Assembly (NCBI GenBank): GCA_945898275.1
Contig: CAMDHZ010000005.1
Location: forward strand, 1-64,000
DNA: 64,000 nt
Reading direction: 5' to 3'
Source of the DNA: Chitinophaga pinensis
GTDB taxonomy: Bacteria; Bacteroidota; Bacteroidia; UKL13-3
Shown here one piece after another: positions 2,109-61,675 of the stretch. The translations under genes and the position numbers were made by a program. The stretch's first letter is position 1. Every line of letters starts with the position of its first letter. The notes under the pieces are model-generated. The model searched no databases. It was not told where the DNA came from and saw nothing but the letters and a program-made list of their open reading frames with translations.

Positions 2109-2122
2109 TTTGGTTCAAACCG
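2109..2122 (+). repeat. Dispersed motif TTTGGTTCAAACCG (intergenic copy)
   Basis: This is a full 14-base copy of the dispersed word and the only exact copy lying fully outside a coding region. It sits just after the stop codon of the preceding gene. The surrounding 19 bases (2109-2127) are identical to 56641-56659, which lies inside a protease gene. Confidence 0.75.
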
Positions 2123-2130
2123 AAACCTAA

Positions 2131-2167
2131 AAAAGCTGAGCTTGTTTAAACGGGCTCAGCTTTTTTT
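2131..2167. terminator. Bidirectional intrinsic terminator
   Basis: The hairpin arms AAAAGCTGAGC and GCTCAGCTTTTTTT enclose an AT-rich loop. There is a T run on the plus strand and an A run (T run on minus) on the other side. It serves the secreted protein gene on plus and tilS on minus, and the tilS stop codon (2156-2158) lies inside the right arm. Confidence 0.8.
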
Positions 2168-3487
2168 ATAAGTAATTTTTAAGATGTTTTGTGTAGCCTT
2201 ACTTACAGCAAAATTTTGAGAAGGAAAGAGGGGTAATAGCGCAATAATTTCATTTAATTGGGTCAATACAAAAACTTCTCTTTTGGCTATCGGACTTAAC
2301 TTCTTTTGGTTGATACTATCAGATACAAGCTTAGAACCTTTGCTCCCAAAAGGTTTAAACTTATCGCCCGGCGCTGCAAGCCTTAATTGTATGGGTAGTT
2401 TAATTTTATCTGCATCCAAATAAATAGCGCCATCTTTTAAATCTAGCACATCTGTTTTTGGTTCAACCTGAAAACAAATAATTTGATGATTGAAGTGATA
2501 GCTTTGATTTAGGGCAGTTACTTCAATAGAACTTGTAAATTCAAGATGTGGCAAAACATACAAACTATCTCTACTATAAATCACTTCCCACTTAGACGAT
2601 GCTATAGCCGCCATTTCATGTTTGTTAGCAATGGCAGTTAAAATGTTTTCGGTTTGAACCAAGTTGAAATTATACCTGTTTAGGATTGCATATAATAAGC
2701 CCTTTGCCTCATTAAAATTTAGCAAAGCCTTCGCTGGGATGATGAGTGCTTCTTGGTCTTTTTTGCAATGGGTTAATATAAAATCTTCAACAAAAGCTAC
2801 TAGCAAAGCCTGCGTTTCTTGAAGGATTTTCGCTGTTTGGGACATGTTAGCAATAGCGTTAGGAAAAGCATTTTGTAGGGGTTTTAAAACTTCATGCCTG
2901 ATTTTATTTCTACTATAGTCAAGTTTTGCATTAGAGCTGTCTTCGCAAAATTGAATATTATGTTGTTCAGCATAAGTTGAGAGTTCAACTTTACTAGCTT
3001 GCAACAATGGCCTTATGTGCCAACCGTTCACTAGTTTGATGCCGCCTAAACCCTTTAAACCAGTGCCTCTGCTTAAGTTAAACAGGATGGTTTCTGCTTG
3101 GTCGTTGGCATGATGTGCTGTAAATAAATAATCAAATTGATATTCATTTTTTAAGGTCTTGAACCAATTATACCTTAGCGTTCGGGCCTTTTCTTGAACA
3201 CCGCCAGCTTGTAAATCTTCTAAATCTTCTTGTGAAACATGTTGGATGAAAAGGGGTATATTGTTTATTTGGCAGGTCTTTTCAATGAATTGAACTTCAG
3301 TTTTATTCTCTTCAGGTCTTAAACCATAACAAAAGTAGGCTACAGAAAAGTTTAGTTTTAAGTGTAGGCATACCTCAAAAAGCACCATAGAATCTTGGCC
3401 TCCGCTAACTGCAAGCAATATTTTATTTTCTGGTTTGAACCAAGGTTCCTCCAAAAAATAATGATTTAGTTTATCCAAAAGATTCAT
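2156..3487 (-). CDS. tilS: tRNA(Ile)-lysidine synthase
   Basis: This enzyme attaches lysine to C34 of the CAU anticodon of tRNA-Ile2, using ATP, so that AUA is read as isoleucine. The PP-loop motif SGGQDS lies near residues 27-32 of the N-terminal N-type ATP pyrophosphatase domain. The C-terminal part (LRLAAPGDKFKPFGSKGSK) is the TilS substrate-binding region. The length of about 443 residues is normal. The ATG at 3487 (MNLLDKL) is preferred because the longer frame opens with TTG at 3499. It is divergent from the OstA-like gene, with 37 bases between the starts. The gene carries two copies of the dispersed motif, at 2652 and 3432. Confidence 0.93.
   Translation of the reverse strand: MNLLDKLNHYFLEEPWFKPENKILLAVSGGQDSMVLFEVCLHLKLNFSVAYFCYGLRPEENKTEVQFIEKTCQINNIPLFIQHVSQEDLEDLQAGGVQEKARTLRYNWFKTLKNEYQFDYLFTAHHANDQAETILFNLSRGTGLKGLGGIKLVNGWHIRPLLQASKVELSTYAEQHNIQFCEDSSNAKLDYSRNKIRHEVLKPLQNAFPNAIANMSQTAKILQETQALLVAFVEDFILTHCKKDQEALIIPAKALLNFNEAKGLLYAILNRYNFNLVQTENILTAIANKHEMAAIASSKWEVIYSRDSLYVLPHLEFTSSIEVTALNQSYHFNHQIICFQVEPKTDVLDLKDGAIYLDADKIKLPIQLRLAAPGDKFKPFGSKGSKLVSDSINQKKLSPIAKREVFVLTQLNEIIALLPLFPSQNFAVSKATQNILKITYKKS
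2651..2663 (-). repeat. Dispersed motif copy within tilS
   Basis: The minus strand reads TTGGTTCAAACCG, 13 of the 14 consensus bases. In the tilS frame it encodes LVQTE. Confidence 0.7.
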
Positions 3488-3506
3488 TTTAGAACTCAAA
3501 ATTATT

Positions 3507-3524: not shown

Positions 3525-5033
3525 ATGCGTAATCTTTCATTTTATTTTATACTCTCTTTCTTATTCGGTTTGAACCAAACCCATTTATTAGCGCAAGCTT
3601 CTCAGAAAGTTGAGATATTATCGGCAAAGAATTTTGAATATATTAAGTTACAAGATAAGAATGTAAGTAAGCTTATTGGCAATGTTAAGTTAAAGCAACA
3701 AGACACTTATATGGATTGTGATAGTGCTTTAATTTATGAAGCAGAGAACTTAGTGGAGGCTTTTTCTAATGTTCGAATCAAGTATAGAGACAGTGTAACC
3801 ATCACAGGCAATTACTTGATTTATGACGGCGCAACCAAGAAGGCTTTGATAAGTAAAAGTGTTACCTTGGAAGATAAGAATATGTTGCTTTCAACAGAAC
3901 AATTGGATTACGATTTAAATAATCAGTATGGCTATTATGCAAATGGCGCAACGATTACCACTAAGGAAAATAAGTTAACCAGTAAGCTTGGCTATTTTTA
4001 TGCTAGAAAAAATGAGTTCTTCTTTAAAGAACAAGTGGTTTTAACCAATGCAGATTATACCATGACGAGTGATACTTTAATGTATAATACTAAAACTAAA
4101 ACTGCTTACTTTTTTGGTTCAACCAAAATTATTGGAGAAAAGGAAAGTATCTTTTGTGAGAATGGTTGGTATAATACGGCCAAAGATCAATCGCAGTTTA
4201 GTAACAATGCAGTGCTAATTTCAGAAAGAAAAGTTTTGATGGCAGATAGTTTATACTATGATAGAAAATTACAATTAGGCAAAGCATATAGAAATATCCA
4301 TATCTACGATTCAATTCAAAAAATACATTTGTTTGGCCAGTATGGGTATAGTAATGAAAAAATTGGCGTAACACAAGTAAGTCATAAAAGCAAAGCCATT
4401 AAACTAATGGATGAAGGAGACAGTTTGTTTCTGTATGCTGATACTATTTTTATGACACAGAAATATAAAAAGCAAAAAGAAACCTTGCGTTTGTTTCATA
4501 AAGTAAAAATTTTTAAAAGTGATTTGCAAGCAGTTTGTGACAGTTTGGTTTATGTAAGAGACGATTCAACTATTTGGATGTTTAGGCAACCAATTATGTG
4601 GAGTGGATTAAATCAAATTACTTCAGATACTATCAGTTTCTTTTTAAACGCAGGAAAATTGGATTCATTTAATTTAATGGCAAATGCTTTAATCATAAGT
4701 AAAGTAAAGGGAGCACATTTTGACCAGATAAGAGGAAGGAATATGAAGGGTCAATTAGATTCAGGTAGAATAGAATTTGTAAGGGTATTAGGGAATGCCC
4801 AAAGTATCCATTACGAAAAGGAAGACAGTATTAATTTTATTGGTGTAAATGAAATTGATTGCAGTTATATGAATTTTATTTTTGAAAAGGGTCAAATTAA
4901 GAAAGCAGTTTTTGAGACTGCGCCAACAGCTACCATGCACCCACCCGATGCAATTAAACCAGAAGATTTTAGGTTAAAGGGATTTAAGTGGCATGAATAC
5001 AAGCGACCTCAAAGGCTTAATTTTCAGTATTGA
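3525..5033 (+). CDS. OstA-like / LptA-family organic solvent tolerance protein
   Basis: The protein has 502 residues with an N-terminal signal peptide (FYFILSFLFGLNQTHLLAQ). The mature part consists of OstA/LptA-type beta repeats: I-G-N-V-K-L ... M-D-C-D-S-A-L-I-Y, then repeated T-S-D-T-L-x-Y-N patterns. The family (OstA_2 in Bacteroidota) resembles the beta-jellyroll bridge that carries lipopolysaccharide across the periplasm. LPS transport is therefore the best guess, acting in the periplasm or at the outer membrane. It diverges from tilS. A full copy of the dispersed motif lies within the signal peptide codons (3566-3579). No partner lpt genes are in the window. Confidence 0.8.
   Translation: MRNLSFYFILSFLFGLNQTHLLAQASQKVEILSAKNFEYIKLQDKNVSKLIGNVKLKQQDTYMDCDSALIYEAENLVEAFSNVRIKYRDSVTITGNYLIYDGATKKALISKSVTLEDKNMLLSTEQLDYDLNNQYGYYANGATITTKENKLTSKLGYFYARKNEFFFKEQVVLTNADYTMTSDTLMYNTKTKTAYFFGSTKIIGEKESIFCENGWYNTAKDQSQFSNNAVLISERKVLMADSLYYDRKLQLGKAYRNIHIYDSIQKIHLFGQYGYSNEKIGVTQVSHKSKAIKLMDEGDSLFLYADTIFMTQKYKKQKETLRLFHKVKIFKSDLQAVCDSLVYVRDDSTIWMFRQPIMWSGLNQITSDTISFFLNAGKLDSFNLMANALIISKVKGAHFDQIRGRNMKGQLDSGRIEFVRVLGNAQSIHYEKEDSINFIGVNEIDCSYMNFIFEKGQIKKAVFETAPTATMHPPDAIKPEDFRLKGFKWHEYKRPQRLNFQY
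3566..3579 (-). repeat. Dispersed motif copy in the signal peptide of the OstA-like gene
   Basis: The plus strand reads CGGTTTGAACCAAA, a complete 14-base copy in inverse orientation. In frame it encodes GLNQ within the signal peptide, a region that tolerates sequence change. Confidence 0.75.
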
Positions 5034-13856: not shown

Positions 13857-14528
13857 TTATTTTAATCTATCAAATATTTTTTTTGTGGTTTGAGCCTTAT
13901 CTGATGTTTGACCACCAATTCCTATAAATAGTCCAATTCCAATTATTATAAATAATACCCCAATAACAATATTCATTTTATGTAAGAACTTCTCAGATAA
14001 ATAGCCTTTAATCTTGTTAGAAAAAATGCAAATTGCTGCCTGAGAAGCAAAGGTTGCAAGCATGGTTGCACTAAAGAAAATGAGTGTTTCTTGGCTATTG
14101 TACCTAAGTGTAGATTGCAGGTATAGACTTATGCCTAGCCATGTTAGCAAAACAAGAGGATTGATGATATTTAATAAAAATCCCTTTGTTATATAATAAT
14201 ACAATGGTCGATTTCCCTGTTCTGAACCAGAGACAATTTTACTTGATTTGATAATGGTTCTTATACCTAAAGCTAAGAAGGTAAATAAACCTATCCAGCG
14301 AATTGCTTCACTATATTTAGGAAGCTCTTCATTTACAATTGAAGTAGCAAATATTGAGATTCCTATAAAAATGATATCACTTAAAATTGCTCCAAGTGCA
14401 ATCATTAGCCCTTTTTGTAGCCCTTTTGTAATGCTGGTTTGAACCAATGCGAAAAAGCCTGCTCCAAACGACATGGTTAAGAGCAGGCCTGTAATTGCGC
14501 CTTGCAGAAATAAATTTGGTAAATGCAT
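13857..14528 (-). CDS. LysE/RhtB-family membrane exporter
   Basis: The protein has 223 residues with about six hydrophobic segments. The N-terminus (LFLQGAITGLLLTMSFGAGFFALVQTSITKG) resembles the LysE/RhtB start, in which a G-P/A-x-F-x-x-V motif precedes a conserved G. Members export amino acids or related small molecules across the inner membrane, and the substrate cannot be told here. It lies 26 bases after fumC on the same strand and is likely co-transcribed with it. It carries one copy of the dispersed motif core (14436-14445), encoding LVQT. Amino acid export is inferred from family only. Confidence 0.75.
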   Translation of the reverse strand: MHLPNLFLQGAITGLLLTMSFGAGFFALVQTSITKGLQKGLMIALGAILSDIIFIGISIFATSIVNEELPKYSEAIRWIGLFTFLALGIRTIIKSSKIVSGSEQGNRPLYYYITKGFLLNIINPLVLLTWLGISLYLQSTLRYNSQETLIFFSATMLATFASQAAICIFSNKIKGYLSEKFLHKMNIVIGVLFIIIGIGLFIGIGGQTSDKAQTTKKIFDRLK

Positions 14529-16458: not shown

Positions 16459-19400
16459 TCCTCTTCTTGTTCTATCAACCCAATTTTGCTATCTAAGACT
16501 TTTCCATTATAGTAGTTTTTAACAAAATTACACCAATGACAATCGTCTTTATTACAGCCATTTTTGAACTCCTTGTTTTGAATGCTTTGAAAGGTGTCTT
16601 GAATTTGCTTGGTAACAATTACTAAATCTTCTGGCAAAATGGTAATTGTTTCTTTATGAAAGGTGTATGCTGTTACCCCTTTGTCGCCTGCACTTGCTAT
16701 GGGTTCAACAAAATCAAAAATGCTTTTTTGCATTTCCCAATTCTTTTGAACATCATAATCCATGAGTAATTTATAGAATACTGCCTGACGCCAATAATCA
16801 CCTCCATGAACATCTTCAAATGAGGGTTCTTTTCCTTTTGCTAAAGCTATTTCAACAGCTTCTTGATTAGGACGCTTAAATTTATCTTTTGCATTTTTAT
16901 AAGAGCCCGTTTTGTAATCAATCACATCCACTAAGTTCCCTGTAAACTCTAGTTTATCTAGTTTTCCATTGAGTGGTATTCCTTTTACTACTACATTTCT
17001 GTATGGCTTTTCAACACTGGTAATTTTATTCCAACTTGCAGCATATTCATTATAATATGCAGGTAAGATGGTTTCACCATATTCTATTCTTCTTTTGAAT
17101 TCAGGTTCTGTAAAACTGTCTTTGTTTCGTTTCATATACCATTTAAAATCATTCACTATTTGTTCGGTTCCTCCAAATGATTTTTCTGGGTCTAAATTCA
17201 TCTTTTTAAATAATTGTTCAAGCGCAAAATGAATGGCTGAACCAAATGTCATGCTTGCACTTTTGGGAGCGGGAACTCGTATGAAATTATTGAAATAAAA
17301 ACTAACTGGACATTTTAAATAGGTGTTTAAATGAGTAACACTTAAACTATATTTTTCAAGTATAGAATCTGTAAAAGCGTTGTCAATAATCGATGCCGGA
17401 ATGCCAGCTTCTGCTTCTGGATAGGCATGTTGTAAATAGCTTGCAACTATGCTTTCCTCAAATGGAATGCTTGTTTCTTCAACCGATTCTTTTTCTAACA
17501 ATTCTGCTAAGAAACGCGAAGGTTCTAACTCTCTTTGGTTCAATTCAAATGCACAATAACTGAGCTCTAATTGCCTTCTTGCCCTTGTAATGCCCACATA
17601 AAATAAGCGCCTTGCTTCCTCGGCTTCATCTGCTGTAATGGTAAATAAATTATCTGGCAATTTAAATCCTCTATTAGATTGCCCATGATCCCATGATTTA
17701 CTATCACATCCAATCATAAATACATAATCAAATTCTAGCCCTTTTGCTGAATGTGTAGTGATAAAATTAATGCCATTGTTAGCATACCAAACTTTCTCTG
17801 CTGGTAAATCTATGTGGTCTTGCAGCATAAGGTCTAAGAGCTCAAGTAAACTCATTAAACTATGGTTAGGTTTTTTACTACATTCTTGCTTAATGAAATT
17901 AAAGAAAGTTTGAAGCACTTCCATTTGCCAGTTGCGTTCATTATTGCTTAAAGCAGAACCCAATAAACCACATTCTCTAATTACTGTATGTAATGTTTCT
18001 TGGGCGGTTTGGTTCAAACTATATGAAATTAAATACTCAATTGTTTGAATAAATTTCCCAAAATTATTACCAAGTTCTCCTTGACTAAATAAATCTGCTT
18101 TTTTTGGACGTGCCAATATTTTCAACTCCTCTCGCCAATTAGTTTGCCGTTCATTAAAATTAGTTCTTGCTATGGCTAAAGATAATTTTGCAATCTCTTG
18201 TGTGTCTAAATTAAATTCCTGAAAATGTAAAATTTCAAAAAGGTAGGATTCTCCGCTATGTGCATGTTTACTTTCTGCCACCAGATAACGTATCAAAAGC
18301 AAAAGCTTTTTAATTATTGGTTCCTCAAGAATATTAATTCTCTTTCGTGTATTAACTTCTATTTGTTTCCATTTTAAATATTGCAACATCTCGTCGGCTT
18401 GGCTATGTTTTCTATATATAATTGCAATTTCATTCATGGCTTGCCCTGCATCTCTAAGTTTTACAATTTCATCGCAAATGGCAGCACTTTCATGTATTTG
18501 GTGGTAGTATTTTTTTATTTTTGGTCGGTTTGATCCAATCAATCTATGCGGGTTTGAAGCTACTAAATGTTTACTTTGGTTTATCCTTTGGCTGTTATTT
18601 TGAATTAAGGTTTCTGCAGCAGTTAGAATGTGTGGTGTAGACCTGTAATTTTCTTCAAGTGTCACAAGGTTTAGATTCGAACCAAACTGCTTAATAAACA
18701 ACTCTATATTAGCCACACTTGCTCCTTGAAACCTGTAAATACTTTGGTCGTCATCACCCACTGCAAAAATGTTTGGCGAATCCCAATAGGATATCAATTC
18801 TTGCAACAAGTCATTTTGAGAACCGCTCGTATCCTGAAATTCATCCACTAAAATGTATTGGTACTTTTCTTGATAATTTGCAAGCATTGCTGGTTCTTTT
18901 CTAAAGGCTTTTAAAACCCATAAAATCATATCGCTAAAGTCGTACCTGAAATTTTTGAGGAGTAAGGTTTGATAGGATTCAAATAAATTTACACCTGCTT
19001 TGAGCAACTCCATTTTTCGAAGTTCTTCATTTATCTTGTCCGTTTTTAAATCTCCAGGTGCATAGGTTTTTCCGTCTTTTTTATTGGTAGTTTTCTTTTT
19101 ATAAATATACTCCTCTCTTAAGGGTAAATCTTTGCAATACAATTCTATTTTTTCTTGCAGGAATGAGGGCTCCCAATCCTCCTTTTTCATTACACTAAAC
19201 AAATCTTTAAGTCTGTTTATTTCAAAATATACATCACCCGTGTATCTTTTAAGAATATGATTTTTAGGCAAGCCATCTATAAGTGCTCTTAAAAATTGCA
19301 CCTCTTCCAATTGACTGATTGGGTCTAAGTTGCGATATCCAAAATAGTCTAAGTTTTCTTGTATAACTAAGTTGCAAAATGCATGAAATGTTGCAATTTG

Positions 19401-31608: not shown

Positions 31609-31613
31609 ACCGT
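31600..31613 (+). repeat. Dispersed motif copy spanning a start codon
   Basis: This complete 14-base motif covers the TTG start of the minus-strand type B protein. The coding strand reads CGGTTTGAACCAAA, with TTG (31608-31606) as the inferred initiator. Confidence 0.7.
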
Positions 31614-42752: not shown

Positions 42753-44837
42753 TTATATGTGGCCATTCCATTTTCTAATGAGCCATTCTCCTGTCATTAT
42801 CATTAGGATTAAAGCAAATAACCATTTAGCATTTAAAAGAAGTTGCAAATCTTCTTCTTCATAAACAATAGGTTTTATTTGTGCATTCTCTTGTAAGGAT
42901 TTTTTAAGCTTTTCTATTTCGTTTGGTAAAAACATACTTCCACCTGTTTCATTTGCTAAAGCATTGAGCATTCCATGGTCGGCTTTGGTTTGAACCAACT
43001 CTGTTTGCAAGGCCTGAACCATGAATTTCCCCTTTTTTATAGGATATGATTTATTATTCAATACAGATGCCTCATAAGAATATATGCCTGGTCCTAATCT
43101 GCCTGCGTTTAACTCATAACCTTTGCCATTCTTTGATAAATTGTATTGATAACTTCTTCCATTTTCTCCAAGTATTTTTAAATCAATTTCTTGGTTTTGG
43201 ATAAGTTCAAAAGACTCATTATAAATTTCAGCTTCAAATAACACTGCTTCTGTTTCATCAAAGCGCTTTTTCATTGGGTAAATTCTAAACCTACTCTGAT
43301 CTGTATTTGAAGCAGTCCATTGCACAATTTTCGAAATAAAATTCTGAGTAATTAACTGGTTTTGGTTCAATAAGAAATCTTGTAAACGCCATTTCCAAAA
43401 TCCTTCACCTGCTAAAACTGCATACTTCAATTCTTTGGCCTGACTAAAAAACAACAATGGATTATTGGTTTTAACATACCCTAATTGTTGATTAAGCAAG
43501 GTTGAAACATCTGTCGAAACTTTGTAAGTTCCATATAAACTAATAAGGGGAGGAGCCTTTTTTATGAATTCATTGAGCTGTTCGTCTATGATGAATTGAG
43601 AAAAATTTTCATTTATCCAACCTTGGGTTTCATTATAATTTTGTGGTGGTCCTATAATATTTACAATTCCAAGATTAGCAAGAGCATTTGCGTTACTTTG
43701 TTTTCCAAGCACAAAAAATATGGGTTTATTTCTTTGCTTTAAGGTTTTTATTAAAGTCTCTCCAGTGCTATTTAATCCAGGTAATTGGTGCAAAATAAAT
43801 AAGGAAGCATCGTTTAAATGTTCTTCCTTATAATCTTGTATAAGATAACTAAAAACATCAAAATTTTGGTTCGTTTTTAAGGTTTGAACCAAAGCGCTAA
43901 CGTCGGGATGAGGACTCTGTGCAAGTAGCACAATTTTTTGTTTGGATTTAAGTGATTCTATTTGAAATGAGTAAACATTATTCAATAAATTCTTTTCTCC
44001 CAAAAGTGGTTTAAGTCTTAATTGATAGGTGTGCAATCCTTCTGAGGCCGCCGGCATATTCAGTGTTAAAATTTCACTGGCAGGGTCGTTGTTAAGCCTG
44101 AGTTGGCCATTTAGGATGGTTTTTGAATTTTCGCTAATCGAATACTCAATTAAACTTCCTTTGAAATAATTTGCAGCGATATTGGCTTGAACCAAGAAGT
44201 TATTTCCTTCAAATACAATTTCATTGTGTTTGATATGTTTAATCCAAACATCTTTTTTGCGCGAACTATCGCCAAAAGCAATGGTATAAATTCTTGTTTT
44301 TTGTTGAATCGCTTCATACAAGGGCTGTTCTCCAACATTGTAAATACCGTCACTTGCCAAAATCATTCCAGCAAGGTTAAGGTTATAATGCGCTTCACTT
44401 ACGGTTTTAATTCCTTCCGAAAGATTACTTTGTTTTTCACTAAAGCTGATGCTATCACTTTGCCTTGTTTTTTCGCCAATGGTATAGGTTTTCACCAAGT
44501 AATCTTCACCTAATTCTTGCTGTAATTTTAATAATTCTGAAACCGCAGCATTAACAGAAGTTTTAGCAGAAGTTTCCTGCACCATAGAGCTAGAATTGTC
44601 TATTAGAAGCGCAATGATAGGTTTATCAGTTCTTTGGAGTTTAAGTTGAAATAACGGACCTAAGACTAGAAAAAGAATTAGGAAAATAGCACTAAATCTT
44701 AAAAAATAGAGAACCCTTCTCAGCCAAACATTTGCTAAGGTTAATGGATTATTTTGGTATAAGAAATAACTAATTCCGGCCGATAACAGAAGCCAAATTA
44801 AAATAAAAGCAAATGGATAGGGAGTACTAAAACTCAT
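42753..44837 (-). CDS. VWA-domain membrane protein (BatA/BatB-like topology)
   Basis: The protein has 694 residues. Two N-terminal membrane segments (about 8-27 and 40-62) are followed by a von Willebrand A-like domain with MIDAS-type DNSSSM near 80-85. A long periplasmic part follows with an Ig-like segment around 560-620, and a last membrane segment lies near the C-terminus (WLFALILMIMTGEWLI). Such proteins in Bacteroidota are usually linked to envelope homeostasis, but the exact role is unknown. It is the last gene of a minus-strand run, three bases after fabG. It carries two copies of the motif core, at 42987 and 43881, each encoding LVQT. Confidence 0.75.
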   Translation of the reverse strand: MSFSTPYPFAFILIWLLLSAGISYFLYQNNPLTLANVWLRRVLYFLRFSAIFLILFLVLGPLFQLKLQRTDKPIIALLIDNSSSMVQETSAKTSVNAAVSELLKLQQELGEDYLVKTYTIGEKTRQSDSISFSEKQSNLSEGIKTVSEAHYNLNLAGMILASDGIYNVGEQPLYEAIQQKTRIYTIAFGDSSRKKDVWIKHIKHNEIVFEGNNFLVQANIAANYFKGSLIEYSISENSKTILNGQLRLNNDPASEILTLNMPAASEGLHTYQLRLKPLLGEKNLLNNVYSFQIESLKSKQKIVLLAQSPHPDVSALVQTLKTNQNFDVFSYLIQDYKEEHLNDASLFILHQLPGLNSTGETLIKTLKQRNKPIFFVLGKQSNANALANLGIVNIIGPPQNYNETQGWINENFSQFIIDEQLNEFIKKAPPLISLYGTYKVSTDVSTLLNQQLGYVKTNNPLLFFSQAKELKYAVLAGEGFWKWRLQDFLLNQNQLITQNFISKIVQWTASNTDQSRFRIYPMKKRFDETEAVLFEAEIYNESFELIQNQEIDLKILGENGRSYQYNLSKNGKGYELNAGRLGPGIYSYEASVLNNKSYPIKKGKFMVQALQTELVQTKADHGMLNALANETGGSMFLPNEIEKLKKSLQENAQIKPIVYEEEDLQLLLNAKWLFALILMIMTGEWLIRKWNGHI

Positions 44838-45615: not shown

Positions 45616-47376
45616 TTATGAAATTGTAGAAGCAAACTGATGTTCATACAATTCTTTGTAGAATTTGCTGTTTTGAAGCAAGTGTGTATGCGTCCCTCTT
45701 TCAACTATTTCTCCTTTGTCTAGCACAATGATTTCATCGGCATGTGAAATGGTACTAAGTCTATGTGCTATCATGATGCTGCTTCTTCCTTGCCTCATTT
45801 TTTCTATAGCATTTTGAATGATTTCTTCTGTTTCATGGTCAATGGAGGAAGTAGCTTCATCTAATACTAAAATTGCAGGGTTATGCACCATGGCGCGCAC
45901 AAATGAAATCAGTTGTCTTTGCCCCACACTTAAGGTTGCGCCTCTTTCCATAACTGGTTGCATGTAACCCTTCGGCAATAAGCTTATAAAATTATGTGCT
46001 CCCAATAATTTTGCGGTTTCAATTACTTTTTCATCACTTATTTCTGAGTTGTACAATTTGATGTTATCCATAATGGTGCCACTAAAAAGAAAAACATCTT
46101 GCAAAACCACAGCAATTTTGCTTCTTAAACTTTCCAAGGTGTAGGTTTGAACCGAAATGCCGTCAATCGTTATTTTGCCACTTGAAATGTCATAAAATCT
46201 GCTCAATAAATTTATTATACTAGATTTTCCAGCACCAGTGGCCCCAACCAATGCTAAAGTTTTGCCTTTTTCCAAAGTAAATGAAATATCTTTAAGTACT
46301 GGCTGACCTTCATTATAGGAAAAGTTTACTTTTTCAAAAAGGATATTACCTTGAATTTCATTCGCAGTTAAGTTTCCATCCACCTCTTTGGGTTGATTAT
46401 CATCCAAAAGATTGAATATTCTTTCAGACGCCACCATTCCCATTTGCAAATTGTTAAACCTATCTGCGAGCTGGCGAATTGGACGAAAGAATAAATTCAA
46501 ATACATAATAAATGCAATCAGTACACCTGTAGAAAACTCACCATTAATAACACCACTCGAACCATACCAAACCACTAGTCCTATTGCTATGGCACTTAAC
46601 ACTTCAACCACCGGAAAAAAAACAGAGTAATAAAAAACACTCTGAATATTTGCATTGCGATGGTCAGCATTTATCTCCTTAAACTTTTTGAATTCCTGTT
46701 CTTCTCTGTTAAAAATTTGAACTATTTGCATTCCAGTAAGGTGTTCCTGAACAAATGTATTTATTTGAGACACCTTATTTCTTACCTCTTCAAAACTAGA
46801 TTTCACCGCCTCTTTAAAAAGGTAACCACTGTAAAACAACAAAGGTAAAACCGACAAACAAACCAATGATAATTTCACATCGGTTGCAAACATAAGAATG
46901 AGTAAAACAGCAATTTGAAGGATATCGCCAACAATATTTATCATGCCTTCACTAAATACTTCACTAATTACTTCAATATCGCTAATGCTTCTGGTTACTA
47001 AATTCCCTACAGGAGTTTTGTCGAAATAGGATTGTTTAAAGCTTAATAAGTGTTTGTATACCTTGTTTCTTAAATCATAAATAATTTGTTGCCCTAAGAA
47101 GTTAGAAAGTAAGGTTCCCCACCACTGCATTGCTGCACCAAGGATAAGTAAGAACAATAAAAGAACTGACATATTTAACAAGCCATTTCCGTCTCCAATA
47201 GCAATATACTTATCAATGGTAACTTGAATTAAATAGGGTCTAAGAGGGCCAAGAATTGCAATGCTAACCGTTAAAAAAACTGCAGTTAAGAATTTTTCTT
47301 TATAGGGTAATGCAAGAGAAAAAACCCTTACTAGTAATTTCCAATCGAAGGATTCCTTTTTCTTTGGTTTTGTCAT
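45616..47376 (-). CDS. ABC exporter (MsbA-like, fused TMD-NBD)
   Basis: The protein has 586 residues. Six membrane helices lie in the first 320 residues. The nucleotide-binding domain has Walker A GATGAGKSS near 375, signature LSVGQRQ near 478, Walker B ILVLDEATSSID near 500 and switch His in IAHRLSTI. It is a half-transporter that would dimerise and export a lipid, peptide or drug across the inner membrane. The substrate is unknown. Position between a TonB receptor and fabG fits an envelope lipid role, but this is only suggestive. It contains one motif core (46144), encoding VQT. Confidence 0.9.
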   Translation of the reverse strand: MTKPKKKESFDWKLLVRVFSLALPYKEKFLTAVFLTVSIAILGPLRPYLIQVTIDKYIAIGDGNGLLNMSVLLLFLLILGAAMQWWGTLLSNFLGQQIIYDLRNKVYKHLLSFKQSYFDKTPVGNLVTRSISDIEVISEVFSEGMINIVGDILQIAVLLILMFATDVKLSLVCLSVLPLLFYSGYLFKEAVKSSFEEVRNKVSQINTFVQEHLTGMQIVQIFNREEQEFKKFKEINADHRNANIQSVFYYSVFFPVVEVLSAIAIGLVVWYGSSGVINGEFSTGVLIAFIMYLNLFFRPIRQLADRFNNLQMGMVASERIFNLLDDNQPKEVDGNLTANEIQGNILFEKVNFSYNEGQPVLKDISFTLEKGKTLALVGATGAGKSSIINLLSRFYDISSGKITIDGISVQTYTLESLRSKIAVVLQDVFLFSGTIMDNIKLYNSEISDEKVIETAKLLGAHNFISLLPKGYMQPVMERGATLSVGQRQLISFVRAMVHNPAILVLDEATSSIDHETEEIIQNAIEKMRQGRSSIMIAHRLSTISHADEIIVLDKGEIVERGTHTHLLQNSKFYKELYEHQFASTIS

Positions 47377-47378
47377 GG

Positions 47379-50590: not shown

Positions 50591-51319
50591 CTAAGGATTC
50601 AAAATAAATTCCCTATGAAGGAATAGTGCATTGGTGAGTAGGCGTTGCTCGGCGGTTTGCAAATCTGTTAACGTGCAAGGCATTTCAATGACTGGATGAG
50701 ATTCCATGAAAACCCTTCTACCAACTCCTTCAATACAACCTTCAGATAGGGGAGGAGTATACCATTGGTTATTTTTGAACCAAAAAATATTGCTGCTGGT
50801 ACTTTCGATGATATTGCCAAAGGTATTTAGGATTAGCGCTTCATCCCAATTGTTCTCTTTGGCATAAATGGCAGACATTATGTAAATTAGAGCATTTCCA
50901 GTTTTTAAGTTAGCGAGTATTCCAGGTGCTTTTACTTGCTCTGGGTAAATTCCAAGGGTTAAGAATTTATTATTTTTTGATAAAATGGGTTGAACCGAGG
51001 TTTCATAAATGATTTGAGGATTGATAGGAAGATAATTTCCTAATCCATTTCTTTTAGCTGTAAATCTAATTCTGAGCTTACTTTCATATGGGTTTTGGTT
51101 CAAACCGAAAATGGCTGCTTGCCTAGCTATTTCAAGGAATTCTTCAATTGATAAAAAGGGTTTAGGCATTTTTAGAATTTCTAAACCCTTGATTAAACGC
51201 TCGAAATGAAAATTGGCAAAACGTATTTCGTTGCCTTCAAAAAGCATGGTTTCAAATAAAAGGTCTCCATATTGATTGGCTCTTTCCATAAAATGATTTG
51301 TTCGTAAAGGTAAAATCAT
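50591..51319 (-). CDS. Class IV PLP-dependent aminotransferase / lyase (PabC-like)
   Basis: The protein has 242 residues of the fold-type IV family. The PLP lysine is in LANLKTGNAL near residue 138, and the conserved Glu and cofactor-binding loop are in NIIESTSSNIFW. Length and lack of a branched-chain signature suggest aminodeoxychorismate lyase (folate pathway), but a D- or branched-chain aminotransferase is not excluded. The ATG at 51289 (MERANQYGDLLFET) is an alternative and perhaps better start. The first ATG lies on the edge of the divergent thiolase promoter. It heads the six-gene minus-strand run and holds a full dispersed motif (51094-51107). Confidence 0.8.
   Translation of the reverse strand: MILPLRTNHFMERANQYGDLLFETMLFEGNEIRFANFHFERLIKGLEILKMPKPFLSIEEFLEIARQAAIFGLNQNPYESKLRIRFTAKRNGLGNYLPINPQIIYETSVQPILSKNNKFLTLGIYPEQVKAPGILANLKTGNALIYIMSAIYAKENNWDEALILNTFGNIIESTSSNIFWFKNNQWYTPPLSEGCIEGVGRRVFMESHPVIEMPCTLTDLQTAEQRLLTNALFLHREFILNP
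51094..51107 (+). repeat. Dispersed motif copy in the class IV aminotransferase gene
   Basis: TTTGGTTCAAACCG on plus. On the coding (minus) strand it encodes GLNQ. Confidence 0.75.
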
Positions 51320-55504: not shown

Positions 55505-56890
55505 ATGAAACCATTTATAGTACTGCTTTTTAGTTTATTAGCTTTTGGGGCAAATGCCCAAAATACCTATTGTCCAACAAAATTGTCACAAGACCAATTG
55601 CAATGGTTGCGCCAATTTCAAAGCGAAATTGACACTAAAGGATTGCCTTCACAATCTGCGGTGATTACCTATGTTCCGGTTAAATTTCACATTATTGGAA
55701 ATAATGAAGGAAAAGGATATTATTCTGTTAGTTCTTTATTACGTGCTTTGTGCGATTTAAACGAGGATTTTCTTCCTGCCCGCTTGCAATTTTATTTTGC
55801 AGAGGCTATCAGTTATATCGATGATGATGAATTATATGCAGGCAATAGTGATGCAATTTGGTTTCGGTCGGAAGATTATAAGAAAGATGGAGCAGTTAAT
55901 GTTTTCTTTCATGGCGCTGGCATGCAATGGTGTGGCGTTTATTTTCCAGGGGTGGATGTAGTTTTTGTTAAAAATTCTTGTCAAGGAAGCACTGCTACCA
56001 CTTTAACACATGAACTAGGGCATTTTTTTAGTTTGCCACATACCTTTTCTGGATGGGAAGGTGGCAATGACCCCGGGGTTTGGGAGCGCTTAGATGGCGC
56101 CAATTGCAGAAATGCTGGCGATGGATTTTGCGATACCAAAGCAGATTATGTGAGTCAACGCTGGAGTTGCCCTTTACCTTGGACGCTCAAAGACCAAACA
56201 GGAGCAAGTTTTAAGCCTGATAGTTCTATTTATATGAGCTATTCCTCAGACCAATGTCAATCTAGGTTTAGTGAGGAGCAAATGGCTGCTATGCGAGCAA
56301 ATGTTGCTGCTAGAAGCATTTCTACCCTAACTGCCGATGTAAGAGAATTACCTACACCTAAATTAGTTTCTCCTCAAAATTTGGACTCTAATATTTCCCC
56401 TAACGCCGTTAATTTTACTTGGCGCAAAGTGGCAGGTGCTTTTGCTTATCACTTGCAGGTGGCGAGGTTTGGCGATTGGAATTTTATAAACCATGATGTT
56501 CTGGTTTATGATACCACAACTGTTTTAAATTTATTCGGAACATGGGAATACACTTGGCGTGTAAAGGCAATTACTAATGCCTATTCCTGCGGAAGCTTTG
56601 GTGCTTCTGATACTTTTTATACTAAAGAAACCGCTTCCGGTTTGGTTCAAACCGAAACCCAAAATGTTTTAAAGGTATTTCCTAATCCTACTGGGGGAAG
56701 CCAATTTGTAAATTTGGAGGCCAACGAAGCTTGTGAAATTGAAATCAGGAATGTGCAAGGAAGCTTAATTCAAAGTTTTCGGCTTGAACCTAAACGTTTG
56801 CATCAGGTAATGTTTGATAAATCTGGATTATACCTAGTTTATTGCAAGCAGGCAGAAAGCGTTAGTGTTAGAAAGTTATTGGTGGATTAG
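55505..56890 (+). CDS. T9SS type A secreted M43-like zinc metalloprotease
   Basis: The protein has 461 residues. The signal peptide (VLLFSLLAFGANAQ) is followed by a catalytic domain with the metzincin motif HELGHFFSLPH near 169-179 and a Met-turn in IYMSYSSDQC. Cysteines suggest disulfides as in pappalysin-like (M43) enzymes. A fibronectin-like domain lies at about 280-375 (PKLVSPQNLDSNISPNAVNFTW). A type A sorting domain ends the protein (KVFPNPTGGSQFVNLE ... GLYLVYCKQAE). It is a surface or released protease. A full dispersed motif sits in the linker before the sorting domain. It converges on the THEP1-MobA gene with a four-base overlap. Confidence 0.9.
   Translation: MKPFIVLLFSLLAFGANAQNTYCPTKLSQDQLQWLRQFQSEIDTKGLPSQSAVITYVPVKFHIIGNNEGKGYYSVSSLLRALCDLNEDFLPARLQFYFAEAISYIDDDELYAGNSDAIWFRSEDYKKDGAVNVFFHGAGMQWCGVYFPGVDVVFVKNSCQGSTATTLTHELGHFFSLPHTFSGWEGGNDPGVWERLDGANCRNAGDGFCDTKADYVSQRWSCPLPWTLKDQTGASFKPDSSIYMSYSSDQCQSRFSEEQMAAMRANVAARSISTLTADVRELPTPKLVSPQNLDSNISPNAVNFTWRKVAGAFAYHLQVARFGDWNFINHDVLVYDTTTVLNLFGTWEYTWRVKAITNAYSCGSFGASDTFYTKETASGLVQTETQNVLKVFPNPTGGSQFVNLEANEACEIEIRNVQGSLIQSFRLEPKRLHQVMFDKSGLYLVYCKQAESVSVRKLLVD
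56641..56654 (+). repeat. Dispersed motif copy in the M43 protease linker
   Basis: A full 14-base copy, extended to 19 bases identical with 2109-2127, encoding LVQTE in the linker before the sorting domain. Confidence 0.75.
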
Positions 56891-57981
56891 AGATAAGTTC
56901 GAAAGGAGCTGAATTCCATAGGCGTGTCAAAGCTTTTAATCTTGTTTGGGTACTCTACTACTATTTTAATGGCATTGAGTTGCCTAAGTATTTTACTGAG
57001 TGAGTTTTCCTTTTTATCAAAGTATAAATTTTGAATTGCCTTAAAATCTTTTGGATGTATGCAGCAAAGCATGGGTTCTAGTGGCTCATCAACACTTTTA
57101 CTTAATGCAACAGAGCAATTCAATAATTGACAGGCTTCTGTAAGTTGTTGCATATATTCTTTAGACAATAGGGGATAGTCGCAGCCAATAATTAAAATGG
57201 CTGAAGTTATATTAGTTTCTAACAAGGTCAATAAACCTGTTAAGGGTCCGGCATCTTCATACTTAGGATTATCATGAATTTGTTTAAGGCTTGTATCGAA
57301 CCAATTTGATTGCTCTTTTTTACAAGAGATAAAAACTTCTTTTACCAAAGGTTGCGCCAAAAGATTTAGCCAGAGGTACTGCGGTAACTCATGATAATTT
57401 AGTAATGCTTTGGGCTGCTTCATGCGGCGGCTAAAGCCGCCGCATAAAACCAGCGCAATAGTTTCCATGGGATGCTCAGGAATAACCTCCACCATTTGCT
57501 CACTACCCACAATTTCCGCATCTTGCAAGGAATAATGTTTTATTGCTTCATCCAATAAATAATCTCTAACTACTAAATAACATTTTCTATCCTTGTTTTC
57601 TAAAGCCAATAATTTCAAACCTTCGCTTAATGCCGGTTCAAACCCCGAATTATTTTTAAATTCTAACTTCCCAATTTCATCGATTACTATATCATTAGTT
57701 GAAAGATTTATGGCATCTAAAAGTAGTTGTTGGGCAAACAAAAAGGGTTCCTTTAGAAAAGTAAATCTTCCAATTTGAACCAACTCTGATTCTGAAAAGT
57801 CTTTTTCAAACACCTCTAAAGGCAAAACCAGATTTAAATGGTTAAGGTATAATTTCCTTTTTCCAGCCAAATCAGGCATTAAAACCCCAAACACCTGTGG
57901 GTGTTGGTTGAGCCAATGGATTAATCGGCTTGTTTTGCCAGACCTTATAGGGTCGCTAATGATTGTAAATTTAGTTTTCAT
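56887..57981 (-). CDS. THEP1-type NTPase fused to a MobA-like nucleotidyltransferase
   Basis: The protein has 364 residues with two halves. Residues 1-170 resemble nucleoside-triphosphatase THEP1, with a P-loop in SDPIRSGKTSRLIHWL and Walker B VIDEIGKLEF. Residues about 173-364 resemble molybdenum cofactor guanylyltransferase MobA: ALVLCGGFSRRMKQPKALLNY, then DAGPLTGLL and IIGCDYPLL. The MobA half would attach a nucleotide to molybdopterin. The THEP1 half is a P-loop NTPase with no assigned partner. The gene overlaps the upstream membrane protein gene by 11 bases, so the two are coupled. No other molybdenum cofactor gene is in the window. It carries a motif core at 57635. Confidence 0.82.
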   Translation of the reverse strand: MKTKFTIISDPIRSGKTSRLIHWLNQHPQVFGVLMPDLAGKRKLYLNHLNLVLPLEVFEKDFSESELVQIGRFTFLKEPFLFAQQLLLDAINLSTNDIVIDEIGKLEFKNNSGFEPALSEGLKLLALENKDRKCYLVVRDYLLDEAIKHYSLQDAEIVGSEQMVEVIPEHPMETIALVLCGGFSRRMKQPKALLNYHELPQYLWLNLLAQPLVKEVFISCKKEQSNWFDTSLKQIHDNPKYEDAGPLTGLLTLLETNITSAILIIGCDYPLLSKEYMQQLTEACQLLNCSVALSKSVDEPLEPMLCCIHPKDFKAIQNLYFDKKENSLSKILRQLNAIKIVVEYPNKIKSFDTPMEFSSFRTYL

Positions 57982-58957
57982 CCGGTGGATAAAGGCTTAT
58001 GGCCAAAAGTAATTCCATAAAGTACCATACCCTTCCTATTCGATTTTTACGCCCTCCACTAAATTGCCAAACCGACTGAACGCTTTCTGTAAAATACTGC
58101 ATTTGCTTGTTCACCAAAGCGAAAAGACTTTCTGATGCCATCTTTTTAGATATTTTCTGCAATAACATTCTCAATAAAGGATTCACTATAAAAAGAAGTA
58201 CAAATATCACCACAAGGGTTCTTGTAAATACATATAAACCTTTGTGCAAGGTACCCTCGCTAAGCCAAAACGTAATCCCAATGAATACTAAAGTTAAGAG
58301 CAGGCTAAGCCATTTTAAAGAAAGCTTCTTTGTCTTTTTGTTTACTGCAACTGGGTTTGGTTCAAACCGAGGTAAAATGCTTGCTAACTTCAAAAGCTTT
58401 TGAGGGAGGAAATACGATTTATACCCTAAAAATAATCCCCATAAAAAGTAAATTGATGCGTAAATAATAATTAGCCAATAGCTAAATGAAAAATTTTGAC
58501 TAAGGTTGAAATCTTTTAGCAGCCCAATCACAAATAAATCCAGAGCCTCCCAAATGCTTTTGCCATAAATTAAAGTTGCCAATAAAAACTTTTGCAAGGC
58601 CGATTCTAACAAAGCAATCGAAGCATACAGCATGCAAGTGAGCAAGTTTCTTCCAAAAACACCAAATACAAGCCAAGCAAATAAGCCCTGAAAAGCAACA
58701 GCAATGTAGGCTGGTAAAGGGGCCTGTGGACTAACCATAAATTTTATGGACATTACCAATAAGGTGGCTTTGAGTATTTGGTATGGTTTATGTTTAAATT
58801 GCTCTGCCAGCAACATGAGAATAATACAAGCAAACCCACCCACAAAAAATCCTGTAAAGGGAAGTTTGATAGCATGTAAAATGCCGCCAAGGCCACTTTC
58901 GCAAAATGCCCAAAGCGCAATTAGGTTTATTTGTTCTTTTGTATGTTGTTTATCCAA
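57971..58957 (-). CDS. Polytopic inner membrane protein of unknown function
   Basis: The protein has 328 residues and about eight hydrophobic segments. The first part (LWAFCESGLGGILHAIKLPFTGFFVGG) is rich in small residues and resembles substrate-binding subunits of membrane transporters, but I cannot assign a family. The start is TTG at 58957, because an in-frame stop lies two codons upstream and no ATG is near. It is upstream of and overlaps the THEP1-MobA gene by 11 bases. A transport role linked to molybdenum cofactor use is a context-based guess. It contains a full dispersed motif (58356-58369), encoding RFEPN. Confidence 0.6.
   Translation of the reverse strand: MDKQHTKEQINLIALWAFCESGLGGILHAIKLPFTGFFVGGFACIILMLLAEQFKHKPYQILKATLLVMSIKFMVSPQAPLPAYIAVAFQGLFAWLVFGVFGRNLLTCMLYASIALLESALQKFLLATLIYGKSIWEALDLFVIGLLKDFNLSQNFSFSYWLIIIYASIYFLWGLFLGYKSYFLPQKLLKLASILPRFEPNPVAVNKKTKKLSLKWLSLLLTLVFIGITFWLSEGTLHKGLYVFTRTLVVIFVLLFIVNPLLRMLLQKISKKMASESLFALVNKQMQYFTESVQSVWQFSGGRKNRIGRVWYFMELLLAISLYPPDEN
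58356..58369 (+). repeat. Dispersed motif copy in the membrane protein gene
   Basis: TTTGGTTCAAACCG on plus. On the coding (minus) strand it encodes RFEPN, a third reading frame of the same word. Confidence 0.75.
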
Positions 58958-58990
58958 TTTTAACTATTTTTACAAACCAATTACAGTAAC

Positions 58991-59497
58991 ATGAAAAAGT
59001 TATTCTTAATCCTTTTTATTAGCGCCATTTGTTTAAACAATATTAATGCGCAAAAGGAATCGCAAACCATGCCATCCATAGATTTGAAAGATATGAATGG
59101 AAAGCCTAAAAACATGTCTGAGTATTCTAAATCGGGAAAAATAACCATAATAAGTTTTTGGGCAACTTGGTGCTCTCCTTGTAAAAAAGAACTTAACAAT
59201 ATTAATGAATTATACGATGATTGGAAAAACAAGTATGACCTAGTATTGGTTGCAGTTAATACCGACAACGCTAGAAACACTCAAAAAGTTAAGCCTTACG
59301 TGGATGGTCAAGGTTGGGAATACGACATCATTATGGACGTAAACCAAGATTTCCAAAGGGCCTTGAACATTGTTCAAATTCCACATACTTTTCTATTAGA
59401 TCAAAATGGTCAAATAGTTTACCAACACAGCGGCTATGTAGAAGGTGATGAACTTGCACTTGAAGAAAAGATAAAAGCCTTGTTGGCCAAAAAATAA
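58991..59497 (+). CDS. TlpA/ResA-like thioredoxin-fold protein
   Basis: The protein has 168 residues. The signal peptide (LFLILFISAICLNNINAQ) is followed by a thioredoxin domain with the redox motif WCSPC near residues 60-64 (FWATWCSPCKKEL). The cis-Pro region is in IVQIPHTFLLDQNG near 130. It should act as a periplasmic thiol-disulfide oxidoreductase. Its stop codon touches the ATG of the subtilase gene (TAA then ATG with no gap), which suggests that it may help folding of that cysteine-containing secreted protease or act on envelope thiols generally. Confidence 0.9.
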   Translation: MKKLFLILFISAICLNNINAQKESQTMPSIDLKDMNGKPKNMSEYSKSGKITIISFWATWCSPCKKELNNINELYDDWKNKYDLVLVAVNTDNARNTQKVKPYVDGQGWEYDIIMDVNQDFQRALNIVQIPHTFLLDQNGQIVYQHSGYVEGDELALEEKIKALLAKK

Positions 59498-61675
59498 ATG
59501 AAAAGACTATTTGCAGTCTTATTAATTCAAACCCTTTGCCTTGAACTACTTTCAGGGCAAAGGGTTTTTAATGAAAATACACCTCGAAATTTTACAGACA
59601 CCACTGGTAAATATTGCGAATGGGATGCTTGGGGGTATAATAACATCCCCGAATACCTTTGTACTTGCAATAACCTAGACGCAGCCAAAACAACCCAAAC
59701 AAATGCCTTGTGGCCAAGCGGTAGTTTAGGTTTGAACCTAAGTGGAGCGGGCTTAAATAAACTTGGCGTTTGGGATGGGGGAAGGGCCCGCACCTCTCAT
59801 ATAGAATTTGGAGGCCGTGTGATTATTATGGATTCTGGTGGTACCCTTAGTGCGCATACCACAGCGGTTGTTGGAAACATGGTTGCCGCAGGATTGTTGC
59901 CAAATGCCAAAGGAATGAGCTTTGCTGCACAATTAAAGAACTGGAATTTCACAAGTGATAATGCAGAAATCATTGCCGCCGCTCCAGACTTATTTTTATC
60001 TAACCATTCCTATGCCACCACCGCTGCATGGACCAATATTAGTGGGCAATGGTACTGGTATGGCGATAGCAGTTTACATCCTACACGCGATTGGAAATTT
60101 GGTTATTATGATAATCGCAGCAGAATATGGGACAGTGTAATGTATGCCAATCCTTATTATTTAATGGTTAAAGCAAGTGGCAACGACCGTGGCGCAGGTA
60201 TTGCACCTGGAACGCCCCATTATTATTGGAATGGAACCGCTTGGGCTTTGAGTACCACCATACGAGATACGGTGGGTCCTTATGATTGCATTTCTACCTT
60301 TGGAAATGCAAAGAACATCCTTTGTGTAGGCGCCATTCCCGTTCAGCCTAGTGGACCAACAGGCAATATCAATACCTTAAGTTTTAGCACTTGGGGCCCA
60401 ACTGATGATGGCAGAATCAAACCAGATTTAGTGGCAGCCAGTGGAAATATTATTTCTGTGGGTTCAGCCACCGATTCAGCCTATGCGGGACTTGGTGGCA
60501 CTTCTATTGCTGCACCAAATGTTACGGGTTCCTTATTATTACTGCAACAGTACAATCACCAATTAAGAGGGACTTACCTGTTAAACTCAACCCTCAAAGC
60601 ATTAGCCATTCATAGCGCAAGAAGGTGCAAACCCACTTTGCTTGGTCCAGATTATGAATGTGGTTGGGGTATACCTAATTTAAACAAAGCAGCCTTATGC
60701 CTCAAAGATTCTCTTAAGCATAAAGTAATTGAATTCAATCTGCAAAATCAAGATTCGTTTGAGATATTTGTCTATTTAAATGCAGGCGATACTGTTAAAA
60801 GTACCTTGGTTTGGACAGACCCCAAAGGCATAACCGCTGCACCAGTTTACAATGACACTACCTTGAAATTGGTTAACGACCTAGACATGCGATTGCTCAC
60901 CCAGAACGATTCTTTGATTAGGATGCCATTCATCTTAAATCCAGCGAATCCCTCTGCCGCAGCAACTACTGGCGATAATTTTAGAGACAATATAGAGCAA
61001 ATAATTGCTACCAATTTACCAAGTACTTGGTATAAAGTTAAAATTAAACACAAAGGAACACTTCAAAATAATTTGGCTCAAAAAGCTTCTTTGGTAATTA
61101 GCGGAGGCCAAACCTTGTTGGCGCTGCCAGTAACTTATCTTAAGTTTACTGCCGAGCAAAAGAGTGCGCAAGAAATTCAGTTAAGCTGGACAACTGCTCA
61201 AGAAATCAACAACAAAGCTTTTGAAATTTGGCATGGAACTTCAATTGAAACCTTAAAACCCATTGGAACAATAACTGGAAAAGGGAATTCAAATAGGGTG
61301 AATGCTTACGTTTTTTCAGTGGAAAACAGGAATGGTTTCGCGGGCACGCAATACTTTCAATTGAGGCAAATAGACTTTGATGGAGAGGTGTCAAATTCAA
61401 GAATTATAAGTCTTGAACCAAAGTTTGAATTGTCTTTGTATGCAATAGCACCAAATCCTTTTAAAAACGAGTTTACCATTTATTATAGCACAAGCGAAAA
61501 AACTACAGTCAGCATTTTTAAAATGACTGGCGAGTTGATACTTAGCGAAGAACTAATTCCTATGAAAAATGGCAGCCATAAAATAAACTTAAAAGACCTA
61601 CCTGCTGGTCTTTACCTTATGAGTTTGCAACATGGCAATGAAAGATATTATAGGAACTTATTGAAGGAGCAATAA
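59498..61675 (+). CDS. T9SS type A secreted subtilisin-like (S8) protease
   Basis: The protein has 725 residues. The signal peptide (FAVLLIQTLCLELLSGQ) is followed by an S8 domain with catalytic Asp in GVWDGGRART near 92, His in SAHTTAVVGNM near 120 and Ser in GGTSIAAPNVTGS near 336. A beta-sandwich domain follows (about 405-545). The segment LPVTYLKFTAEQKSAQEIQLSWTTAQEINN near 545-580 is typical just before type A sorting domains, and the end is IAPNPFKNEFTIYYST ... AGLYLMSLQHGNERYYR. Cysteines near the N-terminus (YCEWDAW, YLCTCNN) may form disulfides, which would explain the adjacent TlpA gene. A motif core lies at 59729. Confidence 0.9.
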   Translation: MKRLFAVLLIQTLCLELLSGQRVFNENTPRNFTDTTGKYCEWDAWGYNNIPEYLCTCNNLDAAKTTQTNALWPSGSLGLNLSGAGLNKLGVWDGGRARTSHIEFGGRVIIMDSGGTLSAHTTAVVGNMVAAGLLPNAKGMSFAAQLKNWNFTSDNAEIIAAAPDLFLSNHSYATTAAWTNISGQWYWYGDSSLHPTRDWKFGYYDNRSRIWDSVMYANPYYLMVKASGNDRGAGIAPGTPHYYWNGTAWALSTTIRDTVGPYDCISTFGNAKNILCVGAIPVQPSGPTGNINTLSFSTWGPTDDGRIKPDLVAASGNIISVGSATDSAYAGLGGTSIAAPNVTGSLLLLQQYNHQLRGTYLLNSTLKALAIHSARRCKPTLLGPDYECGWGIPNLNKAALCLKDSLKHKVIEFNLQNQDSFEIFVYLNAGDTVKSTLVWTDPKGITAAPVYNDTTLKLVNDLDMRLLTQNDSLIRMPFILNPANPSAAATTGDNFRDNIEQIIATNLPSTWYKVKIKHKGTLQNNLAQKASLVISGGQTLLALPVTYLKFTAEQKSAQEIQLSWTTAQEINNKAFEIWHGTSIETLKPIGTITGKGNSNRVNAYVFSVENRNGFAGTQYFQLRQIDFDGEVSNSRIISLEPKFELSLYAIAPNPFKNEFTIYYSTSEKTTVSIFKMTGELILSEELIPMKNGSHKINLKDLPAGLYLMSLQHGNERYYRNLLKEQ

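Follow-up and report, generated by a model that had tools for sequence, protein, structure and literature searches.

The stretch analysed here (the window) comprises 64,000 nucleotides, positions 1-64000 of contig C5 of the draft genome G000 (Chitinophaga pinensis, Bacteroidota), and its genes are strewn with a short dispersed DNA word, GGTTCAAACC. The window holds 18 exact copies of this core, 8 forward and 10 reverse, where dinucleotide shuffles expect 0.15; eight are complete copies of a 14-mer, for which allowing up to two mismatches yields 31 places compared to 0.84 expected. No Rfam family and no tRNA was found in the window. Eight copies read as VQT (six LVQT, one MVQT and one SVQT), five as GLN and three as F-K/E-P, while one overlaps the start of an open reading frame (ORF) and one is intergenic (Table 1). 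The initial annotation had reported the 18 copies with this strand split, the eight 14-mers, three coding readings, six GLN (counting the copy over the start codon) and three F-K/E-P, all of which we recovered. Its copy starts were exact except for 2652, which is a reverse site at 2651-2660, and its eight LVQT turned out to be the eight VQT.

Throughout the 3,522,268-base draft, GGTTCAAACC occurs 785 times (394 forward and 391 reverse), compared to 29 copies of the reversed word, which served as the composition control. A 464-kb sample, consisting of 400 kb of G000 and the window, contains 111 exact sites; an order-4 Markov model expects 3.4 and an order-5 model, which already holds the word's own hexamers, expects 8.4. 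VQT tripeptides number 54 in place of the 17 expected, with 36 in the word's codons compared to 5.6 expected from codon usage, and the word's codons for GSN and GLN likewise exceed codon usage (18 compared to 1.3 and 25 compared to 2.2, respectively). The VQT excess is approximately as large as the count of words read in this frame, so the word has changed the encoded protein sequence. Exact copies are split 29:27 on contig C1 (240 kb) and 17:20 on contig C2, and degenerate copies 59:76 and 46:46, respectively; the GC skew of C1 is negative in 11 of 12 20-kb bins, and a polar element with a 75:25 preference would give 42:14 there. By eye, there is no regional gradient over 400 kb. The claims of the initial annotation that the word is hugely over-represented, selected at the DNA level and, for exact copies, non-polar are thus borne out.

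Table 1. Exact copies of the word and enriched degenerate variants in the window.
Positions	Strand	Match	Context	Reading
2109..2122	+	exact 14-mer	intergenic, between stop of 52-2106 and terminator-like hairpin (by eye)	
2651..2660	-	exact core	TilS-like (PP-loop) gene 2156-3499	LVQT
3432..3441	-	exact core	TilS-like gene	WFKP
3566..3579	-	exact 14-mer	codon 15 of OstA-like gene 3525-5033	GLNQ
14436..14445	-	exact core	LysE-family gene, codon 28	LVQT
31317..31326	+	exact core	28804-31608, opposite strand	GLNL
31599..31612	+	exact 14-mer	overlaps start of ORF 28804-31608	
32604..32617	-	exact 14-mer	32302-33222, opposite strand	GLNQ
39505..39518	+	exact 14-mer	codon 6 of 39491-39964	LVQT
40625..40634	-	exact core	39968-40852	MVQT
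42987..42996	-	exact core	42753-44837	LVQT
43881..43890	-	exact core	42753-44837	LVQT
46144..46153	-	exact core	45616-47376	SVQT
51094..51107	+	exact 14-mer	50591-51319, opposite strand	GLNQ
56641..56654	+	exact 14-mer	55505-56890	LVQT
57635..57644	+	exact core	56887-57981, opposite strand	GFEP
58356..58369	+	exact 14-mer	57971-58957, opposite strand	RFEP
59729..59738	-	exact core	59498-61675, opposite strand	GLNL
18526..18539	-	degenerate, enriched T->A variant GGATCAAACC	within the stretch earlier called free of exact copies	
23936..23949	-	degenerate, enriched A->G variant GGTTCAAGCC		
63187..63200	-	degenerate, enriched A->C variant GGTTCAACCC		

The logo of the 111 exact sites reads TT(T/A)GGTTCAAACC(G/A)AAA; motif information ceases outside approximately -3 to +15, and a longer insertion element was rejected for this reason. 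A/T flanks surround the near-dyad GGTT..AACC; on the 3′ side, a single short A tract is followed, in the GGTTCAAACC group, by a weak second increase at +17/+18. One-base neighbours were clearly enriched at T2, A7, C8 and C9, where a change reached up to 22 copies; elsewhere in the core (six positions), no change exceeded 5 copies, although a few were above expectation as well (such as A5 to G, 4 compared to 0.5). Specificity is asymmetric, the left half being stricter than the right. Observed and expected counts in the 464 kb were 18 and 0.8 for GGATCAAACC, 22 and 1.1 for GGTTCAACCC, 12 and 1.2 for GGTTCAAGCC, and 41 and 6.5 for the 9-mer GGTTCAACC; the related words that the initial annotation had called common all coincide with sites of the weight matrix or of the 14-mer with up to two mismatches. 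The tRNA T-arm or B-box consensus GGTTCRANNCC resembles the word. Because C follows the core in just 3% of the sites, the T-stem is not formed, and the likeness is probably a coincidence.

Using ORFs called with a simple greedy script, we located 88 of the 111 sites within ORFs (52 on the same and 36 on the opposite strand), 3 over ORF ends and 20 between genes. Site density was 1.24 per kb between convergent genes (7 sites in 5.7 kb), 0.63 between tandem genes (9 in 14.3 kb), 0.40 between divergent genes (4 in 10.0 kb) and 0.20 in coding sequence. By eye, two of the seven convergent sites make up one inverted-pair hairpin (C2, 99849-99877), and one convergent site lies inside a terminator-like loop (C1, 120334).

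The comparison with relatives, which the initial annotation had suggested, showed strong retention in the two nearest, G008 (the closest) and G005. In the alignment with G008 (9 high-scoring segment pairs (HSPs), 70.7 kb, 94.1% identity), all 26 words were identical, compared to 0.55 of GC-matched 10-mers. In the alignment with G005 (6 HSPs, 35.7 kb, 77.6% identity), 12 of 17 words were kept (GC-matched control 0.081), a one-base variant stood at two of the remaining five places, and no word was found in G005 only. Protein alignments, which took best matches within the samples as presumed orthologues, placed the site at 21 of 22 places in G008 and 12 of 18 in G005; in 13 more distant genus genomes only 3 of 81 such places carried it, a rate close to the 0-5.6% of the controls, and the copies of those genomes lie at different places. 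In distant, noisy alignments covering the genus and outgroups, gaps fell on 8 of 89 word sites compared to 51 of 983 flanking 4-residue windows, and identity at the same 89 places was 0.35 in the word's codons and 0.40 in the flanks.

In the genomes searched, the word system is confined to one Bacteroidota genus. Among 41 genomes, GGTTCAAACC was raised in all 19 genus members (46-1318 copies; controls 6-37), with 4-19 copies in six genomes from other genera of the family and 0-20 in 16 genomes from other families. The skeleton TTNGGWTCRRNCC, for which palindromic copies were scored on both strands, gave the same picture in 64 family genomes, with 110-1331 copies in the 19 genus members compared to 3-33 in the 45 others. 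Across 396 genomes of the class (203 genera), seven genus members alone stood out (113-1331 copies); the other 389, 11 of which are shared with the 45-genome family set, held at most 58 copies (in a 9.5-Mb genome), and a few lay somewhat above the level of their controls, as in G294 (38 compared to 4). The 14-mer also occurs in at least 120 stretches of viral DNA; among the matches listed, all 80 have a single match, and these look like chance and are little informative.

Sampling 17 of the 19 genus genomes, we found two clean dialects, GGTTCAAACC and GGTTCGAACC, plus many mixed genomes. The top dispersed word was GGTTCAAACC in G000, G005, G008 and G013, and GGTTCGAACC in G012 and G010 and, more weakly, in G016; G009 additionally has GGATCAAACC. 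Words of the form GGTTCAGnCC were prominent in G001, G002, G004, G006, G007 and G014, mostly alongside GGTTCAAACC, while G003 (8% contamination) was a mixture and the G015 and G018 samples gave no clear top word. GGTTCGAACC is a full palindrome, whereas GGTTCAAACC and GGTTCAGnCC are non-palindromic. Counting GG(T/A)TCxyNCC classes, with palindromes counted twice, gave AA 172, AG 9 and GA 10 in G000 and AA 4, AG 3 and GA 59 in G012 (that is, 172 CAA to 10 CGA sites and 4 to 59, respectively), compared to AA 5, AG 12 and GA 3 in G006 and 16 of each class in G003. Within 152 kb of G012, GGTTCGAACC is present at 22 places and the window's word once. A matrix grown from the left half alone (nominal 15% false discovery) recovers each genome's right half, at densities of 43-198 per 100 kb in 16 of the 17 genomes and 12 in G015. 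Because the matrix approach also returned 11-17 sites, of differing consensus, from each of the three outgroup samples, it proves nothing alone, and the word counts carry the proof.

On a tree of one gene, TilS, from 16 genomes, hand-set dialect labels required 5 changes (minimum 4), with none of 200 shuffles as low, and commonest-class labels required 2 (minimum 2), with 1 of 200 shuffles as low. Because the GGTTCGAACC genomes correspond to a single change with a support of 78/72, this dialect looks like one lineage. Two further repeats were observed among these genomes. The one in G015 (L313-L322), with the core CTCATACCTC and 20 strand counts in 185 kb, is no longer among the top dispersed words when copies within 300 bp of each other are counted as one. 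The one in G003 (L283-L292), with the core ACAGGTCGCGACC and the palindrome GGTCGCGACC (10 strand counts in 200 kb), is unrelated to the word and absent from the list of top dispersed words.

Within the window, the initial annotation had found the stretch from 14.5 to 31.3 kb and both giant genes free of exact copies, which holds for exact copies only. The weight matrix places degenerate sites within that stretch and several in the 2845-aa ORF (5211-13748), whereas the 2044-aa ORF (33294-39428) has none even by this measure. Positions 16455-19676 encode an AddA-like UvrD helicase with a PD-(D/E)XK nuclease, the kind of protein with which a Chi-like word would naturally pair, and 20178-27230 holds the type IX secretion genes PorV and two PorP/SprF with a 1177-aa ORF (21496-25029) between them.

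Uptake sequences have been described from Neisseriaceae (PMC3630211, PMC2397512) and Pasteurellaceae (PMC1626085), in the parts of these sources drawn on here. Because genome-wide presence, an asymmetric core, dialects, an intergenic excess, and high retention with slow turnover match their published features, we propose that the word serves as a dispersed tag of self-DNA, functions like a DNA uptake sequence (DUS) or uptake signal sequence (USS) and would be a pilus-independent uptake sequence, a reading to which we assign a probability of a little under 0.6. We infer an uptake receptor as its reader and transformation as its driver. A putative sequence-specific surface or periplasmic receptor would prefer DNA containing TTnGGWTCRRnCC, which would raise the frequency with which tagged fragments recombine into the chromosome; the word would thereby accumulate by molecular drive and be kept wherever protein and RNA function tolerate it. 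In some lineages, the preference of the receptor may have shifted and the genome-wide word followed, which would yield dialects and mixtures. As the genus yielded no full-length type IV pilus genes, we suggest that uptake may follow a Riemerella-like Bacteroidota route through ComEC, DprA, a periplasmic helix-hairpin-helix protein and outer-membrane partners. Riemerella anatipestifer is described, in the excerpted source, as transforming with ComEC, DprA, ComF, RecA and four proteins that do not resemble known machinery (PMC8459023). That this is a pilus-less Bacteroidota genus with a dialect-forming DNA uptake signal system is a claim that we hold at slightly short of even odds.

Several observations weigh against uptake. 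To our knowledge, the known DUS and USS systems use a type IV pilus. Across the 19 genus genomes, the ATPase of type II secretion systems and type IV pili (PF00437) had no full-length match and weak partial matches in 10, of which the sole one over the cut-off was a 26.3-bit fragment in G003, and the secretin (PF00263) was found in none of the 19. Full-length ATPases occurred in five other-family genomes only of the 41, and the same five alone have the secretin. Because the genus yielded neither a full-length pilus ATPase nor a secretin, a pilus reader is unlikely, and because the pilus is missing we hold our claim to "works like" uptake sequences. ComEC, DprA and helix-hairpin-helix proteins are each present in all 41 genomes and do not discriminate because all 22 relatives without the word have them as well. 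A second, lower-scoring DprA-family gene lies at G000:C42:6261-6872, and G004 also has one. DUF5689, a domain of an R. anatipestifer transformation protein, gave weak matches in 10 of the 19 genus members, of which three narrowly passed the cut-off, and was rejected as a receptor marker because of this weakness; inspecting the surroundings of comEC at six genus loci by eye revealed no obvious receptor or partner.

Further observations weigh against uptake. Because enriched one-base variants were kept at 11 of 14 places in G008 and other one-base neighbours at 8 of 10, no retention difference was seen for the enriched variants. Depletion of the word in acquired DNA found no clear support: nine proteins from three of the seven listed word-free gaps were mostly ordinary (EF-Ts, DXS, MnmG), and the idea that such gaps are mobile islands was not supported. 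The word-free gap at C1 111552-117795 (GC 0.32) encodes an AbiEii-like ATPase, a trypsin-like protein and one protein without a family. Apart from the genomes with a clean dialect, most genus members are mixtures, and the fit of the dialects to the TilS tree depends on the labelling. Rule-set labels weaken this fit; labels by observed/expected ratio required 6 changes, with 51 of 200 shuffles as low and the dialects unclustered.

The near-dyad with its A/T flanks, the full palindromy of the GGTTCGAACC dialect and the strong retention in near relatives would also suit the binding site of an abundant chromosomal protein (a nucleoid organiser, a segregation or an anti-silencing factor) selected genome-wide. 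We regard such a protein as unlikely: it would need strong selection on each of hundreds of sites, but distant congeners share few of the positions, a dialect shift would mean re-tuning a whole genome without drive, and the sites show neither strand polarity nor a visible regional gradient. If the reader were nevertheless a chromosomal protein, the word would represent a new class of highly iterated sites with dialects. Less probable still is a word iterated like the highly iterated palindrome HIP1 through an orphan DNA methyltransferase or a mutational or repair bias, although the word is genus-wide, occurs on both strands, is mostly genic and has one palindromic dialect. HIP1 is palindromic and, in the excerpted source, tied to methyltransferases that read internal palindromes (PMC4390886), whereas GGTTCAAACC and GGTTCAGnCC are non-palindromic, the left half is the stricter one, and site density is higher between convergent genes. 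The initial annotation had likened the word to highly iterated palindromes or uptake sequences; palindromy is restricted to the GGTTCGAACC dialect, the word in the window is asymmetric in specificity and site density is highest in convergent gaps, so the evidence favours the latter comparison over the former.

An over-represented oligomer in a genome that encodes an AddA-like UvrD/PDDEXK protein might instead act as a Chi-like regulator of AddAB or another recombination nuclease. The strand counts on C1 and C2 show no clear polarity and led us to reject the polarity of Chi and of FtsK-orienting polar sequences (KOPS), and together with the intergenic excess they render a Chi-like role improbable. 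VQT and GLN are common readings of the word, in keeping with a by-product of codon, oligonucleotide or shared-protein-motif usage, but the word is enriched in several frames and between genes and far exceeds the order-5 Markov expectation and codon usage; these Markov, frame and codon tests refute a shared protein motif or codon usage, and we give a by-product practically no credence. Overall, in the features compared here, uptake sequences are a closer match to the word than Chi, KOPS or HIP1 are.

No paper was retrieved by a literature search that combined "DNA uptake sequence" with Bacteroidota, and a looser query gave none on uptake words in this phylum among the matches listed; for the exact word, none was on this topic by title among the matches listed. 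Flavobacteriaceae with natural transformation returned only a study of self-preference without such a word (PMC7965970). If our reading is true, sequence-specific DNA uptake would have evolved independently with a non-pilin receptor, the dialects would be recombination barriers among these bacteria, and the word would offer a concrete bait for a Bacteroidota outer-membrane DNA receptor.

Among known systems, Riemerella columbina shares with this genus the phylum and a preference for its own DNA and differs in that, in the part of the source cited here, its authors list only A/T-rich top k-mers (their Table 3) and no such word (PMC7965970). Cyanobacterial HIP1, GCGATCGC, is likewise clade-restricted, highly iterated and equipped with variants in the passages cited (PMC4390886); it is palindromic and methyltransferase-linked, whereas two of the main words here are asymmetric, their strict part being a half-site that is not palindromic. 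The Pasteurellaceae USS, as excerpted, has a comparable core of approximately 9-10 bp, an A-rich 3′ flank and long-lived copies, and its words arise at least mostly by substitution (PMC1626085); the genus flank is one short A tract, not two clear segments, and the pilus machinery was not found. The DUS of Neisseriaceae differs in its unrelated sequence and its pilus, the genus word belonging to another phylum, Bacteroidota, having fewer exact copies (46-1318 per genome) and many mixed genomes, lacking a full-length type IV pilus ATPase or secretin match, and being linked to uptake by analogy. In the sections cited, the DUS is also a 10-12-mer, has hundreds to thousands of copies distributed over both strands, forms dialects that vary at few positions around a fixed core, with two in one genome, occurs as inverted pairs that act as terminators, and has highly conserved copies (PMC3630211, PMC2397512). 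Next to these two systems, a third, pilus-free case of an uptake word with dialects would demonstrate that such a trait can evolve around other receptors and would predict gene-exchange barriers from sequence alone.

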